From Pseudarthrobacter sp. ATCC 49987 (GTDB taxonomy: Bacteria > Actinomycetota > Actinomycetes > Actinomycetales > Micrococcaceae): a DNA stretch of 64,000 nucleotides. Under the pieces are notes generated by a model that saw nothing but the letters and a program-made list of their open reading frames with translations, was not told where the DNA came from and made no database searches. The stretch spans positions 930,001-994,000 of the forward strand of contig NZ_JAABNS010000001.1 of the NCBI RefSeq assembly GCF_009928425.1. Reading direction: 5' to 3'. This document shows, piece after piece, positions 55,519 through 63,110 of the stretch. The stretch's first letter is position 1. Each line of letters starts with the position of its first letter. Position numbers and translations under genes: made by a program.

Positions 55519-55887
55519 GGGGATGATCGGTTTCGACGATGTTAGTCGCGACAGGTGAAGCGGGCCGAGGATGCAGAATTATCTCGTAAACGCTGTCTGC
55601 AAACCAATAAGTGCCGAATCAAAACGCACTGACTTCGCTCTCGCTGCCTAAGCAGTAAGACAGTCCGTCAGCCCGAGGTTGCTATTGCCCCGGATCCTGG
55701 CGTCATTTAGATAGCCACTGCTGTTTACCCCCGTCATCGGGGTGAACGGGACTCTTAGATGACTGGGCCCGGATCAGCCAGCTGTTTGTAGCATGGCTGG
55801 GGCCGAGAAAATCCACCGCAAACTGCGCCCGGAGAAGCCCTGACAACACGACATCGGACGGGGGTTCAATTCCCCCCATCTCCACCA
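55519..55887 (+). ncRNA. ssrA: Transfer-messenger RNA (tmRNA)
   Basis: The 5' GGGGAUG (55519-55525) pairs with CAUCUCC just before the 3' ACCA end (CCA at 55885-55887), giving the alanyl acceptor stem, and GGUUCAAUUCC forms the T arm. The tag frame runs from GCC at 55613 to TAA at 55649-55651 and encodes AESKRTDFALAA; with the alanine carried by the RNA the added tag is A-AESKRTDFALAA. It ends in the ALAA degron read by ClpXP. It rescues ribosomes together with SmpB encoded upstream. Confidence 0.97.
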
Positions 55888-58217: not shown

Positions 58218-59501
58218 TCAGGCGGCGCCGGAGAACGTCAGCCACAGCAGGACGAGATTGAGCGCCACGACCAGGATCACGCTGATGACGGCGGCAATCC
58301 GCAGGGCCATCCCATCGGCGAAGCGGCCCATCAGGGCCTTGTTGCTGGTCAGGACAACCAGCGGGACAAGCACGAAGGGGATACCGAAGCTCAGGACAAC
58401 CTGGCTGAGTACCAGGCCCCAGGTGGGATCGAAGCCGATGCTCAACAGCACAACGGCCGGGATCAGGGTGACCACGCGGCGCGTCATCAGCGGGATCCGG
58501 ATTTTGAGCAGCCCCTGCATGATGGATCCGCCGGCATAGCAGCCCACGGACGTCGAGGCCAGGCCGGAGGCGAGCAGGCCGACGGCGAAGATGACACCGA
58601 TGACCGGACCCAGATTGGTGGTGATCGCGGCATGGGCGCCTTCGATGGTGTCCGTTCCCTCCTCACCGCCCAGGGTCGATGCGGCCAGCAGCAGCATCCC
58701 GATGTTCACGATGCCGGCGACGGCCAGGGCCGCGACGACGTCCCAGCGGGTTGCCCTGACGAGGCGGGCGAGGGCCTGCGGGGGGACATGGAGGTGCGGG
58801 TTCGGACGGTGCCGGTCCCTGGACAGGGCCGAGTGGACGTAGATGGCGTGCGGCATCACGGTGGCGCCGAGCATGCTGGCGGCCAGCAGCACGGTGTCCG
58901 GACCCTGGAAGCCTGGGATCAGTCCGGCGGCGACGCCCGCGGGGTCGGGCGGACTGATGAAGAGGCCGGCCAGGAACCCGATCGTGATGATGCCCAGCAG
59001 GAACATGATGATGAATTCGAAGGGCCGCTGCTTGTTCCGGGCCTGCACGGCGAGCAGGGCCATGGAGACGCCGCCGACGATCACTGCGCCGAGGGGAAGG
59101 GGCAGCCCGAAGAGCAGGTAGAGCGCAATCGCGCCGCCCACCACCTCGGCAAGGTCGGTGGCAGCGGCCACGATCTCGGCCTGGACCCAGAACGCGCGCC
59201 GCCAGAACGGCTTGAGCCGCTCGCCGAGAATCTCGGGCAGGCTCTTCCCGGTGACGATCCCGAGTTTGGCTGACTGGTATTGCACCAGCACAGCCATGAT
59301 GTTGGCCGCCACGAGGACCCAGACCAGGAGGTAGCCGTACTGGGCGCCGGCCGTGAGGTTGGCCGCAACGTTGCCGGGGTCCACGTAGGCGATCGCGGCG
59401 ACGAAGGCCGGGCCCAGCAGGCCGATGATGGCGCGGCGGCCCGCTTTCGGCCGGAGGGGCGCTGCCGGCACCGCAGATTCGGGTCCTGTTACTTCCAGCA
59501 C
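58218..59501 (-). CDS. mntH: Manganese/divalent metal transporter, Nramp
   Basis: 427 residues, about eleven membrane helices. Helix 1 metal site AIAYVDPGNVAANL (DPGN) and helix 6 site LGATVMPHAIYVHS (MPH) are intact, so it should transport Mn2+ with protons. GTG 59501 lies about six bases after GGGGAG. The upstream region contains a perfect dyad (59579-59601) that may be the MntR operator. Operon with mntR. Confidence 0.95.
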   Translation of the reverse strand: MLEVTGPESAVPAAPLRPKAGRRAIIGLLGPAFVAAIAYVDPGNVAANLTAGAQYGYLLVWVLVAANIMAVLVQYQSAKLGIVTGKSLPEILGERLKPFWRRAFWVQAEIVAAATDLAEVVGGAIALYLLFGLPLPLGAVIVGGVSMALLAVQARNKQRPFEFIIMFLLGIITIGFLAGLFISPPDPAGVAAGLIPGFQGPDTVLLAASMLGATVMPHAIYVHSALSRDRHRPNPHLHVPPQALARLVRATRWDVVAALAVAGIVNIGMLLLAASTLGGEEGTDTIEGAHAAITTNLGPVIGVIFAVGLLASGLASTSVGCYAGGSIMQGLLKIRIPLMTRRVVTLIPAVVLLSIGFDPTWGLVLSQVVLSFGIPFVLVPLVVLTSNKALMGRFADGMALRIAAVISVILVVALNLVLLWLTFSGAA

Positions 59502-59578
59502 GGTGGGCTCCCCTGGTAGGTGCGTCGACGGCGACGCGGCCGGTAGCGGCGGTTCGCGCCGGCACCGGAGTTTGCGGG

Positions 59579-59601
59579 TGCCTACAAATAATTATTAGGC
59601 A
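59579..59601. promoter_or_regulatory. Dyad operator candidate upstream of mntH
   Basis: Perfect arms TGCCTA and TAGGCA are separated by an 11-base AT-only-but-one spacer, centred at 59590, about 90 bp before the mntH GTG. The size and AT core fit a DtxR/MntR-type box, and the core also supplies the AT-rich -10 region. Assignment to MntR is inference from the adjacent gene. Confidence 0.55.
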
Positions 59602-59670
59602 TACCGAAACCATAAGCCAGCGCGCCTGTCCGGGGCAATCCCGGAGGTCACGGAGTGCGGCCCGTCGGGG

Positions 59671-60483
59671 TCAGGCCCGGACGGCCCGCCAGCTTTGGGT
59701 CAGGTAGGGGAGCGCGATGACGTCGTCCGGGCGGTGGCCCAGATGCTCGTGCAGATACCAGTCGAGGTTGCCCAGCACCTTGGCGCGGGTCGTCTCACTG
59801 GCCGCCAGGTAGTAGCTGCGGGACTTCGTCAGCTCCATGATGTCCGCGGTGCGGACCGGATCTTCCCAGCGCGTGAGGTGGCTTTCCAGCCCCGTGAATT
59901 CCGGGCCCAGCGGCGGTGTGAAGTGTGGTTTGTGCACATCCCCGGCATGCATGATGCGCGAGAGCCGGTGCACCCAGGGAACGGATGTGTCCAGCTGGTT
60001 CCAGATCAGCCCCAGCATCCCGTGCGGGCGGAGGATCCTGGCGATCTCCGTGCTGGCAGGCAGCGGATCGCACCAGTGCCAGGCCTGGGCGACGGTCACG
60101 ACGTCGAACGCTTCGCCGGGGAGCCCCGTGTGCTCGGCGGTACCCACGACGGCGGCGACGCCCGGAAGCGTCCGGCGCAGCTGCCCGAGCATGTCGGCGG
60201 ACGGGTCCACCGCCACCGTGTGCAGGCCGCGCCCGACCAGCAGGGCCGTGAACTTCCCGGTTCCGGCGCCGAGGTCCGCGGCCTCCCGGGCACCGGCCGG
60301 GATCAGCCAGCCGGCCGAATCCCCGGGGTACCCGGGGCGGACGCGGTCGTAGTGCTCCCCGCCGTCCTGGAAGCTCTGGCCCAGCTCCTGGCGCCGCTCC
60401 TGATCCAGCTTGGGGCCGCCGCCCAACGTGGGGCCGCCGGGCAGCTTGGGTCCGCCGGGCAGCTTGGGTCCGCCGCTTGCCAC
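59671..60483 (-). CDS. Class I SAM-dependent methyltransferase
   Basis: 270 residues from GTG 60483 (AGGAG eight bases upstream). Core: AREAADLGAGTGKFTALLV (SAM motif I), VAVDPSADML (acidic loop), AFDVVTVAQAWHWCD and LRPHGMLGLIWNQ; this UbiE/Methyltransf_11-like set does not tell the substrate. The first 26 residues are an odd low-complexity tail: GGPKLP repeated, with GGPTLG and GGGPKLD. It lies 93 bp upstream of nothing on its own strand except the aminotransferase gene, which ends at 60577 and may be transcribed into it, placing it under the SAM riboswitch. Confidence 0.83.
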   Translation of the reverse strand: MASGGPKLPGGPKLPGGPTLGGGPKLDQERRQELGQSFQDGGEHYDRVRPGYPGDSAGWLIPAGAREAADLGAGTGKFTALLVGRGLHTVAVDPSADMLGQLRRTLPGVAAVVGTAEHTGLPGEAFDVVTVAQAWHWCDPLPASTEIARILRPHGMLGLIWNQLDTSVPWVHRLSRIMHAGDVHKPHFTPPLGPEFTGLESHLTRWEDPVRTADIMELTKSRSYYLAASETTRAKVLGNLDWYLHEHLGHRPDDVIALPYLTQSWRAVRA

Positions 60484-60576
60484 GTGCGATCTCCTTCGGC
60501 AGGTCCGGATGGGTACCTTTCGAATTTACCGCACGCGGCAGGGCCGTGTTTTCACAGGGCTGGCGGATCCGCGCTG

Positions 60577-62043
60577 TCAGTCCCGGGTACAGGGGGCCGC
60601 GCCGGCGGTTCCGGGCGTGTTGGGGGCCCAGTGCGGGTAGCTGCGGGTGTCGTTGGAGGGCACCCAGCGGCCGGCGTCGACGACGTAGTCCCAGCCGAGG
60701 CCGTTCCGGCGCAGCTCCTGGATTGCTGCCAGCAGACGCTCGGCGTCCGCCAGCCGGGAGCCCAGGCCGAAGCTTGCCCGCAGCGAACCCGAGGGCAGGC
60801 CGAGCCGCCGGAGCAGGGGGTGCGCGCAGAAGCGGCCGTCGCGCAGCCCGATGCCGTGCTCGGCCGACAGGTACGCCGCCACCAGGCCCGCGTCGTAGCC
60901 TTCCACCGAGAAGTTGACGACGCCGATGGTGCCGGTGCCCGGGACGGCTCCGGATCCCGCGTCGAAGGAAACGTCGAAGGAAGCACTGTCCGGGAAGATC
61001 TGGTGGACGCTCACGCCGTCGATCCGGGCAAGGCCCTCGACGAGGAAGGACCGGATGGCGTTTTCGTGCGCGTGCCACTGCTCCACATCCAGGTCGGCGA
61101 TGACCTGGGTGGCCCGGGCCAGCGTGGCGGCGCCGAGGACGTTGGGGGAGCCGCCTTCATGCCGGGCCGGACCGGTGGTCCAGCTGACAGCGTCGATCCG
61201 GGCGTCCTGCACGGCTCCGCCGCCGGCCAGGTGCGGGGTGCCGGCGTCGAGCCAGTCGGGACGGCCGATCAGCACCCCGGCGCCGAACGGCGCGTAAAGC
61301 TTGTGCCCGGAGAAGGCGAGGTAGTCGACGTCGTCCGCGGCGATGTCGATCCGCCGGTGCGGCGCCAACTGGGCGGCGTCGACGACGATCCGGGCGCCGT
61401 AGTCGTGGGCAAGGGCGGCGAGGGCCCGGATCGGCAGGATCTCGCCGGTGACGTTGGAGGCGCCGGTGACGGCGAGGAGGCTGACGCCGCCGTGGGCGAG
61501 TTCCCCACGGAGCAGTTCCAGGGTGGCGGCGAGGGTCGGCGCGGCGATGACGCTGCGGTGGGGCACCCGCTGCCACGGCAGCAGGTTGGCGTGGTGCTCG
61601 ATGTCGAGGTAGAGCACCTCGCCGGTGTGCACGCCGTCGACGGCGGGCAGGCAGCCTGCCAGCAGGTTCAGGGAGTCGGTGGTGTTCCGGGTGAAGATCA
61701 CCGAATCGTCCGGCCGGCCGCCGACGAAGTCGCGGACAATGGTCCGGGCATTCTCGTAGACCGAGGTGCTGATCTGGGAGGCGTACCCGGCACCGCGGTG
61801 GACGCTGGCGTAGAACGGCAGGATCTCGTTGAGGTAGGCCGAGACCACGGACAGGGCAGGGGCCGAGGCGCCATAATCCAGATTGGCGTAGCGGACGTGC
61901 CCGCCCTGGATGAGGGGGGCCTGGATCTCCGCGCCGGTCACCGCGGCCAGCGGCCGGCGGGTGGCGGCGAACCGCGCCTGGGGACGGGCCCGGCCGGCGC
62001 CGGACTGGAGTTCAGGGGTGGCAGGAATCGTGGCAGTCGTCAT
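60577..62043 (-). CDS. Class V aminotransferase, cysteine-desulfurase-like
   Basis: 488 residues from ATG 62043 (GAGG four bases upstream). PLP fold with the lysine block FSGHKLYAPFGAG, the aspartate IVVDAAQLAPH, the phosphate/ring residues near VYENARTIVRDFVGG and TRNTTDSLN, and the C-terminal domain with RDGRFCAHPL. It resembles SufS/NifS/CsdA enzymes and selenocysteine lyases, which remove sulfur from cysteine. The N-terminal 35 residues are extra. The start codon sits 14 bp after a riboswitch terminator, so expression should fall when S-adenosylmethionine is plentiful. True substrate not settled by sequence. Confidence 0.85.
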   Translation of the reverse strand: MTTATIPATPELQSGAGRARPQARFAATRRPLAAVTGAEIQAPLIQGGHVRYANLDYGASAPALSVVSAYLNEILPFYASVHRGAGYASQISTSVYENARTIVRDFVGGRPDDSVIFTRNTTDSLNLLAGCLPAVDGVHTGEVLYLDIEHHANLLPWQRVPHRSVIAAPTLAATLELLRGELAHGGVSLLAVTGASNVTGEILPIRALAALAHDYGARIVVDAAQLAPHRRIDIAADDVDYLAFSGHKLYAPFGAGVLIGRPDWLDAGTPHLAGGGAVQDARIDAVSWTTGPARHEGGSPNVLGAATLARATQVIADLDVEQWHAHENAIRSFLVEGLARIDGVSVHQIFPDSASFDVSFDAGSGAVPGTGTIGVVNFSVEGYDAGLVAAYLSAEHGIGLRDGRFCAHPLLRRLGLPSGSLRASFGLGSRLADAERLLAAIQELRRNGLGWDYVVDAGRWVPSNDTRSYPHWAPNTPGTAGAAPCTRD

Positions 62044-62056
62044 GGGACCTCGCTCG

Positions 62057-62082
62057 AAAAGGACCCCACATACCGGGGATCC
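62057..62082 (-). terminator. Riboswitch expression-platform terminator
   Basis: On the minus-strand RNA, GGAUCCCC pairs with GGGGUCC (one bulged U) around a seven-base loop, followed at once by UUUU (62060-62057). It is 14 bp before the start codon at 62043. A separate hairpin GCCGGUCCG/CGGACCCGGC at 62089-62110 lies between aptamer and terminator and may act as an anti-terminator or linker. Confidence 0.7.
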
Positions 62083-62112
62083 GCGCTTGCCGGGTCCGTT
62101 CCGGACCGGCCA

Positions 62113-62191
62113 GGTCGTCACCCGGGGCACCCCACCGCGAATGGAGGGTTGCCGGCCAGCAAACCGGGGTTTCGCGCTGGCACTCGTGACC
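62113..62191 (-). promoter_or_regulatory. SAM-IV riboswitch aptamer
   Basis: Read on the minus strand the element holds the SAM-IV family blocks in order: GGUCACGAGUGCCAGCG, then AAACCCCGGUUUGCUGG, CCGGCAACCCUCC, CGCGGUGGGGUGCCCCGGG and UGACGACC closing the outer stem. SAM-IV binds S-adenosylmethionine and is largely confined to Actinobacteria. It sits directly upstream of the class V aminotransferase gene and starts about one base from the predicted transcription start, with a terminator after it. Confidence 0.88.
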
Positions 62192-62198
62192 TGTGTCG

Positions 62199-62204
62199 AG
62201 CCTA
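62199..62204 (-). promoter_or_regulatory. -10 element of the riboswitch transcript
   Basis: TAGGCT on the minus strand. Seven bases on (about 62192) is the first base of the aptamer, so the RNA would start almost exactly with the riboswitch. TTTTCC about 18 bp upstream is a weak -35. Confidence 0.55.
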
Positions 62205-62297
62205 GGCCATGCCTGCTGCCGCGGAAAAGGCAGGGCAGGAATGTGAAGTGTTTTGTTACGGGACGCGTCCGGACCTGCAGGACGACGCCGGAATTCC

Positions 62298-63110
62298 CTA
62301 CAGCAGGTCGTCGAGCCCCGGGTTGAGGCGCTTGAGGACCTCCGAGTGCAGGATGGAGTTGGTGGCGAGGGCGTTGCCGCCGAACGGGCCGTCTTCTCCT
62401 TCGAGGGAGGTAAAGCGCCCGCCCGCCTCCGTGACGATCGGGACCAGCGCGGCCATGTCGTAGAGGTTCAGTTCGGGCTCGCAGGCGATGTCGACGGCGC
62501 CTTCGGCCACAAGGCAGTAGGACCAGAAGTCGCCGTAGGCGCGGGTGCGCCAGACTTCCTCGGTGAGGCCGAGGAACTCATCGAGGTTGCCGCGCTGCTT
62601 CCAGCCGCCCAGGCTGGAGTAGGACAGCGAGGCGTCCGAGAGTTTGGAGACGTTGGAGACTTTCAGCCGGGTGGCGGCCGCCAGCGACCGGCCCATGTAC
62701 GCACCGGCGCCCTTGGCGGCCCACCAGCGTTTGCCCAGTGCCGGGGCGCTCACGACGCCGACGACCGGCTCGCCCTCGTCAACAAGGGCGATCAGCGTGG
62801 CCCAGACGGGGACGCCGCGGACGAAGTTCTTGGTCCCGTCAATCGGGTCGATGATCCAGCGGCGGGAGCCGTGGCCGGAGCTGCCGAACTCCTCGCCGAG
62901 CACGGCATCGCGCGGCCGGGACCGGGACAGCTGGCCGCGGATGGCTTCCTCGGCCGACTTGTCGGCGTCGGTCACCGGGGTCAGGTCCGGCTTCGTCTCA
63001 ATCCGAAGATCGAGCGCCTTGAAGCGGCTCATGGTCTGGGAATCTACGGAATCTGCCAGTACATGGGCAAGGCGCAGGTCATCGTTGTAGCTCGAAGCGG
63101 GTTGACTCAT
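62298..63110 (-). CDS. hisN: Histidinol-phosphatase, inositol-monophosphatase family
   Basis: 270 residues with the metal-phosphatase motifs LGEEFG (metal-binding Glu), [12 protein letters not shown] (the DPIDGT motif) and [23 protein letters not shown] (third metal Asp and GG). In actinobacteria this branch (Rv3137-like) is the HisN histidinol-phosphatase of histidine synthesis; an inositol-monophosphatase specificity cannot be excluded by sequence. ATG 63110. It follows rsgA by 55 bp on the same strand. Confidence 0.88.

Follow-up and report, generated by a model that had tools for sequence, protein, structure and literature searches.

The SAM-IV class of riboswitches is reportedly founded on the paper of Weinberg et al. 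in 2008. According to passages of a cryo-EM study, the pseudoknot PK-2 of this class is present in the ligand-free aptamer too (PMC6890682), and passages of a review describe it as unknown whether the conditions had induced a bound-like free form (PMC11477058). In C. glutamicum, an RNA-seq study, available in excerpts, places a transcription start 2 nt upstream of such an aptamer (PMC3890552). A SAM-IV riboswitch also lies before SLIV_26975 of Streptomyces lividans, a gene called 'cysteine desulfurase' in passages of the source, so that the association between this riboswitch class and this kind of gene is already published (PMC8079986). Neither expression platform nor terminator nor Shine-Dalgarno came up in a term search of the cryo-EM paper (PMC6890682), and in the literature searched, which consisted of listings and passages with the founding paper outside it, there was no account of a SAM-IV expression platform.

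The locus analysed here lies in a 64,000-nt stretch of DNA, referred to as the window, from Pseudarthrobacter sp. ATCC 49987, an Arthrobacter-type soil bacterium. An Rfam scan of the whole window gave two matches over the gathering score. One is SAM-IV (RF00634) on the minus strand at 62191-62078, with 114.9 bits (gathering score 38) and an E-value of 1.6e-20; it is complete, covering model positions 1-116 of 116. The other is a tmRNA gene (RF00023) at 55519-55887 on the plus strand, with 164.8 bits. Judged by its sequence, the aptamer (62078-62191) is a genuine member of the SAM-IV class, with a match far beyond chance, as the first-pass annotation had proposed. It comprises P1, P2a/b, P3, P5, PK-1 and PK-2, and what had been described in that annotation as a separate linker hairpin turns out to be the P5 helix of the aptamer itself. 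PK-2 can form 7 pairs in the window, joining the P3 loop to the 3' tail through a 5' strand AUUCGCG (62136-62142, minus strand) and a 3' strand CGCGGAU (62079-62085, minus strand). Across 76 aligned leaders PK-2 is paired in 96.4% of cells, with no covariation.

Upstream of the aptamer is a -10-like hexamer TAGGCT (62199-62204, minus strand), with 7 nt between its end and the first aptamer base. To judge such hexamers we took 136 distinct upstream sequences from orthologous leaders and compared them with single-base shuffles: TANNNT starts 11-15 nt 5' of the aptamer in 94 of the 136, against a shuffled mean of 6.9. This enrichment makes the promoter and start-site reading credible, with transcription expected to start at 62191 or within 1-2 nt of it, and the earlier proposal of a TAGGCT -10 with a start at the first aptamer base holds up. 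Taken with the start mapped in C. glutamicum, the Rfam match and the TANNNT enrichment give good support to the SAM-IV class and to the start site.

The controlled gene (60577-62043, minus strand) encodes a SufS-like class V PLP enzyme of 488 amino acids, identified from Pfam and TIGRFAM scores, an SGHK lysine motif and an RDGRFCAH cysteine motif. The match to Aminotran_5 (PF00266) has 253.3 bits, well over the cut-off of 21.5, which places it in the class V superfamily. The nearest NCBI family is SufS (TIGR01979), for which its 256 bits fall short of the 475.1 that membership requires. Among 130 orthologous sequences, some of them near-identical, the SGHK lysine motif occurs in 129 and the active-site signature RDG[RK]FCAH in all 130. 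The second-best matches from six genomes of the family all carry RVGHHCAQ at the same site, and the two of these six proteins that were scanned pass the SufS cut-off with 515.8 and 525.1 bits. The genome studied here, source of the first of these two, therefore encodes two desulfurase-like proteins: one over the SufS cut-off, and a second, distinct one under the riboswitch. Its earlier description as a class V aminotransferase resembling a cysteine desulfurase is thus upheld by the PF00266 score, SGHK and the active-site cysteine, and the enzyme would move cysteine sulfur towards methionine.

The riboswitch accompanies this gene across a wide range of genomes. An orthologue of at least 63% identity was found in 33 of 120 family genomes, and SAM-IV lies directly 5' of it in all 33. 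Among the best 80 of 178 matches, all from Arthrobacter or Pseudarthrobacter, a core-motif match to SAM-IV precedes the gene in 79, and the remaining locus starts at a contig end, with no DNA upstream. A search of the order gave a match at E 1e-80 or better in 73 of 248 genomes; outside the family SAM-IV adjoins the gene in 47 of 52 loci examined (of 65), and for family and order loci combined it precedes the gene in 54 of 59. In other orders of the class the figure is 19 of 20 loci examined (of 97 matches). The association is therefore widespread, and on this distribution it is probably old. The five order loci lacking SAM-IV (L189, L191, L193, L194 and L196) belong to one genus, and the 6.5 kb retrieved for them contain no riboswitch that reaches an Rfam gathering score, so regulation of the enzyme in that genus probably differs.

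A methyltransferase-domain gene (59671-60483, minus strand) is the downstream neighbour in the window, and it is conserved inside the family only. It lies on the same strand less than 400 nt downstream in 79 of 80 Arthrobacter-type loci (the best 80 of 178), in the remaining one at a distance of 1.5 kb, and again less than 400 nt downstream in seven of seven further family loci. It was not found in stretches of 3.9-6.7 kb from 52 order loci outside the family, and we therefore rule it out as part of the general SAM-IV unit.

To place the enzyme among the other targets of these riboswitches, frames were read after each riboswitch and chosen neighbours were scanned against protein families. Four SAM-IV elements were found in the Pseudarthrobacter genome. 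The other three precede metX (482.4 bits against a cut-off of 475), an O-acetylhomoserine sulfhydrylase gene (770.5 against 703) and an operon of DUF1737, rhodanese and O-succinylhomoserine sulfhydrylase genes, the last with 754.4 bits against 618. All three thus stand before sulfur or methionine genes, which agrees with the link to sulfur metabolism suggested at first. We know of no role for the DUF1737 protein. The leader of this operon (L004, C1:4087244-4087358) and L228, which also stands before DUF1737, rhodanese and O-succinylhomoserine sulfhydrylase genes, have the Shine-Dalgarno a few bases after PK-2.

A divergent SAM-I riboswitch adjoins the desulfurase-like gene in 13 of 59 family and order loci, excluding L185, where SAM-I lies elsewhere, and in 1 of 20 class loci. 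Two classes of SAM riboswitch, SAM-I and SAM-IV, here stand back to back in a single intergenic region. The gene behind SAM-I reads as metF in four loci (L179, L184, L190 and L192), all of one family (f14), of which one was scanned (MTHFR, 196 bits), and as rhodanese in five loci (L168, L171, L175, L178 and L227), all of another family (f8), of which one was confirmed by family scan. Taken together, these other targets of SAM-IV and SAM-I (metX, sulfhydrylases, metF and rhodanese) support a role in methionine and sulfur supply. The desulfurase-like family is likely to be part of methionine supply, and the reaction described above would be its contribution. A second SAM-IV was seen before luciferase-like flavin monooxygenases identified by family scan in L172 (3573-3682) and L176 (4704-4814), and another in L184 (3543-3653), where the target looks like a luciferase-like monooxygenase, hinting at SAM-controlled sulfur scavenging.

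Between aptamer and start codon the window contains two arms that can form a hairpin (62082-62061, minus strand). Arm A, GGAUCCCC (62075-62082), is an anti-anti-Shine-Dalgarno strand that overlaps the PK-2 3' strand and shares GGAU with it. Arm B is GUGGGGUCC (62061-62069). In the A:B hairpin, GGAUCCCC at 62082-62075 pairs with GGGGUCC at 62067-62061. The same arm B can instead pair with the ribosome-binding-site arm GAGGUCCCAU (62042-62051), which runs from GAGG (62051-62048) through the AU of the start codon. Arm B is thus predicted to pair with A when SAM is low and with the ribosome-binding site when SAM is high, an assignment based on the helices, their energies and their spacing. Arm B is followed by UUUU (62057-62060), which is unconserved and whose first two U extend the anti-Shine-Dalgarno helix in the predicted fold.

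Both helices are kept in relatives. In the alignment of 76 leaders, 96.8% of cells are paired for A:B, and 97.2% for the six pairs of B with the ribosome-binding site, a U-U position being excluded. One B column covaries with both of its partners, the A-B-ribosome-site combination being C-G-C in 32 of 76 leaders and U-A-U in 29, with minimal changes of 2, 7 and 2 in an alignment that has some misaligned rows. As proof, covariation inside A1 is weak, amounting to one column and few independent events, and for that reason we do not rest the case on it. By eye, the 3' strand of P5 had also seemed able to pair with the Shine-Dalgarno in the window, but inspection of relatives did not show this pairing to be kept, and it was dropped.

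Comparison with shuffled sequences gives a more general measure. Against shuffled linkers, the A:B hairpin of 78 family and order leaders has a mean z of -1.64, and z is negative in 95% of them. Downstream pairing by the GGA of PK-2 occurs in 74 of the 78 leaders, compared with 0.75 of shuffles. The ribosome-site hairpin in the absence of A has a mean z of -0.80 in the 78 leaders, with 76% below zero, and Shine-Dalgarno pairing without A is slightly above shuffles in the diverse leaders (0.74 against 0.68). A single arm common to A and the ribosome site occurs in 38 of 78 diverse leaders against 0.28 of shuffles; for the 68 Arthrobacter-type leaders the figures are 61 and 0.26. Without A, B finds a downstream pairing partner in 52 of 78 leaders, against 0.27 of shuffles, and fails to do so in 26. 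Arm B stops 18-25 nt short of the start codon in 71 of the 73 diverse leaders, compared with 0.29 of single-base shuffles, and in 12 of 17 leaders of other orders. Start codons were assigned by rule, which probably picked the wrong one in some leaders (L185, L225, L248 and others). As the leaders are related by descent, these counts are not independent.

The first-pass annotation had read the hairpin and its U tract as an intrinsic terminator that stops transcription with SAM bound, making the locus a complete transcriptional switch. Hairpin and UUUU (62060-62057) are both present in the window, 23 of 141 leaders have a run of at least four U behind the hairpin, and passages of the C. glutamicum study describe termination there as incompletely understood (PMC3890552). 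But 20 of those 23 leaders are Arthrobacter-type; among 73 diverse leaders (family and order, the window and two relatives) such a run occurs in only 3, and in other orders, where 17 hairpins were identified, it is absent after every one. A terminator scan of 59500-62500 returned only this site, with a 5-pair stem, where shuffles give 1.0, which is the chance level, and a terminator would not be expected to keep a near-constant spacing of 18-25 nt from the start codon. The hairpin moreover borrows GGAU from the PK-2 3' strand and is weakened by PK-2; it should therefore form best without SAM, and would terminate transcription when the gene is needed, the wrong direction. A G+C-rich hairpin with a U tract that is both conserved and above chance was thus not found, and we reject the terminator model, to which we leave a slim chance. 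The hairpin itself is conserved, seemingly as part of a different device, in which its 3' arm pairs alternatively with the Shine-Dalgarno and start codon.

To examine how PK-2 and the ribosome site are coupled we calculated energies with a nearest-neighbour model, imposing PK-2 by removing its bases. In the window, the A:B hairpin has -12.0 kcal/mol, falling to -7.3 once PK-2 holds CGCGGAU, and the hairpin closing the Shine-Dalgarno and start codon has -11.4 kcal/mol. With these values, a slight shift in the pseudoknot could tip the balance between the two hairpins. With PK-2 imposed, opening the ribosome site in the window costs 4.3 kcal/mol instead of 0.9. A first fold of the whole tail, including CAAGCGC and unconstrained, gave a mixed result, with 71 of 146 leaders for the coupling and 16 against, which we put down to mispairing of the free tail; it was replaced by fragments starting at the GG of PK-2.

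With these fragments, the opening cost of 76 diverse leaders rises by a mean of 1.94 kcal/mol, against 0.09 when shuffled. The change is above +0.5 in 55 leaders, below -0.5 in 9 and above the leader's own shuffled mean in 62; with each leader compared to its own shuffles, the empirical p averages 0.27. For 68 Arthrobacter-type leaders the mean rise is 3.54 (shuffled, -0.36), above +0.5 in 67, with a mean empirical p of 0.08. Single leaders are therefore rarely decisive. Leaders of other orders were fetched once the model had been fixed, and the 18 that could be analysed have a mean rise of 2.35 kcal/mol against 0.32 when shuffled, above +0.5 in 12, below -0.5 in 2 and above their own shuffled mean in 14. 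Leaders with SAM-IV in front of other genes show the same trend: across 24 of them, most judged metY-type by first residues (three scanned), the mean rise is 2.83 against 0.37 when shuffled, above +0.5 in 21 and below -0.5 in 2. The metY leader of the Pseudarthrobacter genome (L003, C1:2458672-2458787) behaves in the opposite way to most relatives, its opening cost falling by 3.8 kcal/mol. Mutually exclusive helices that tie the state of the aptamer to ribosome-site access, the mark of a translational riboswitch, are thus found computationally, with exceptions.

An alternative arrangement would have the A-B hairpin serve as a spacer or stability element only, with SAM acting through formation of PK-2 near the ribosome site. 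The Shine-Dalgarno does directly follow PK-2 in the metX leader of the same genome (L002), in L031 and in L242, and with such an adjacent position this mode of action seems likely, but in the window it starts 27 nt after PK-2, and the coupling to the ribosome-binding site is specific relative to shuffles in the sets of 76, 68 and 18 leaders. We consider this arrangement very improbable.

The reading we prefer, and think probably correct, is a translational OFF switch in which plentiful SAM would shut translation of the cysteine-desulfurase-like enzyme. The transcript would begin at the aptamer. When SAM is low, PK-2 would not be held and its 3' strand, as part of arm A, would pair with the GGGGUCC of arm B; this A-B hairpin can form while the ribosome site is still to be transcribed, and the site would stay open. 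With SAM bound, PK-2 would keep GGAU, the A-B hairpin would be too weak, and B would pair with the Shine-Dalgarno and start codon, closing the ribosome site. Here we infer that SAM binds this aptamer, that it stabilises PK-2 during transcription and that the direction is OFF. The presence of PK-2 in the free aptamer, as given in passages of the cryo-EM study, means that SAM may act on rates and not on the existence of PK-2 (PMC6890682). The switch may thus be kinetic.

In bacteria, translation and Rho are coupled. From this known coupling it follows that translation could be blocked as proposed and the mRNA then lost mostly by Rho-dependent termination or decay, so that the output looks transcriptional; we regard this variant as unlikely. 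Returning to the translational OFF switch, a broader and much more tentative reading, which we think possible but would not favour, joins two ideas. In it the SAM-IV class of Actinomycetes as a whole would switch through the PK-2 3' strand, handed between the aptamer and the anti-Shine-Dalgarno arm, with unrelated leaders and different genes following one logic. The RDG[RK]FCAH enzyme would at the same time be a dedicated desulfurase of the methionine regulon which, with rhodanese and O-succinylhomoserine sulfhydrylase, carries cysteine sulfur to homocysteine without cystathionine. Rhodanese stands beside the desulfurase-like gene in one other family, and in the Pseudarthrobacter genome rhodanese and O-succinylhomoserine sulfhydrylase are under a separate SAM-IV. 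From the comparison comes a model of this class of actinobacterial regulators that is specific and open to mutation. The comparison also points to the desulfurase-like family, which stands behind SAM-IV in nearly all loci examined, as a likely part of methionine supply.

Set beside the systems already described, the locus shares with SAM-IV (RF00634) the whole aptamer over 116 model positions, P5 and both pseudoknots; it differs in that the PK-2 3' strand is proposed here as the switching strand. With SufS (TIGR01979) the enzyme has in common the fold family, the PLP lysine motif SGHK and the active-site cysteine, and it differs in its score (256 bits against the cut-off of 475.1) and in having RDG[RK]FCAH in place of RVGHHCAQ. 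The SAM-IV leader of C. glutamicum cg1478, as listed in the excerpts available, starts 2 nt before the aptamer, much as predicted here, but its listed end is 16 nt after the aptamer, which would leave little room for a separate hairpin (PMC3890552). Riboswitch class and kind of target gene are alike in S. lividans SLIV_26975, for which the passages of that account give no mechanism (PMC8079986). The aptamer class and its association with the gene are therefore known; what this analysis adds, in testable form, is a switching strand shared with PK-2 and a desulfurase-like family of its own kind.
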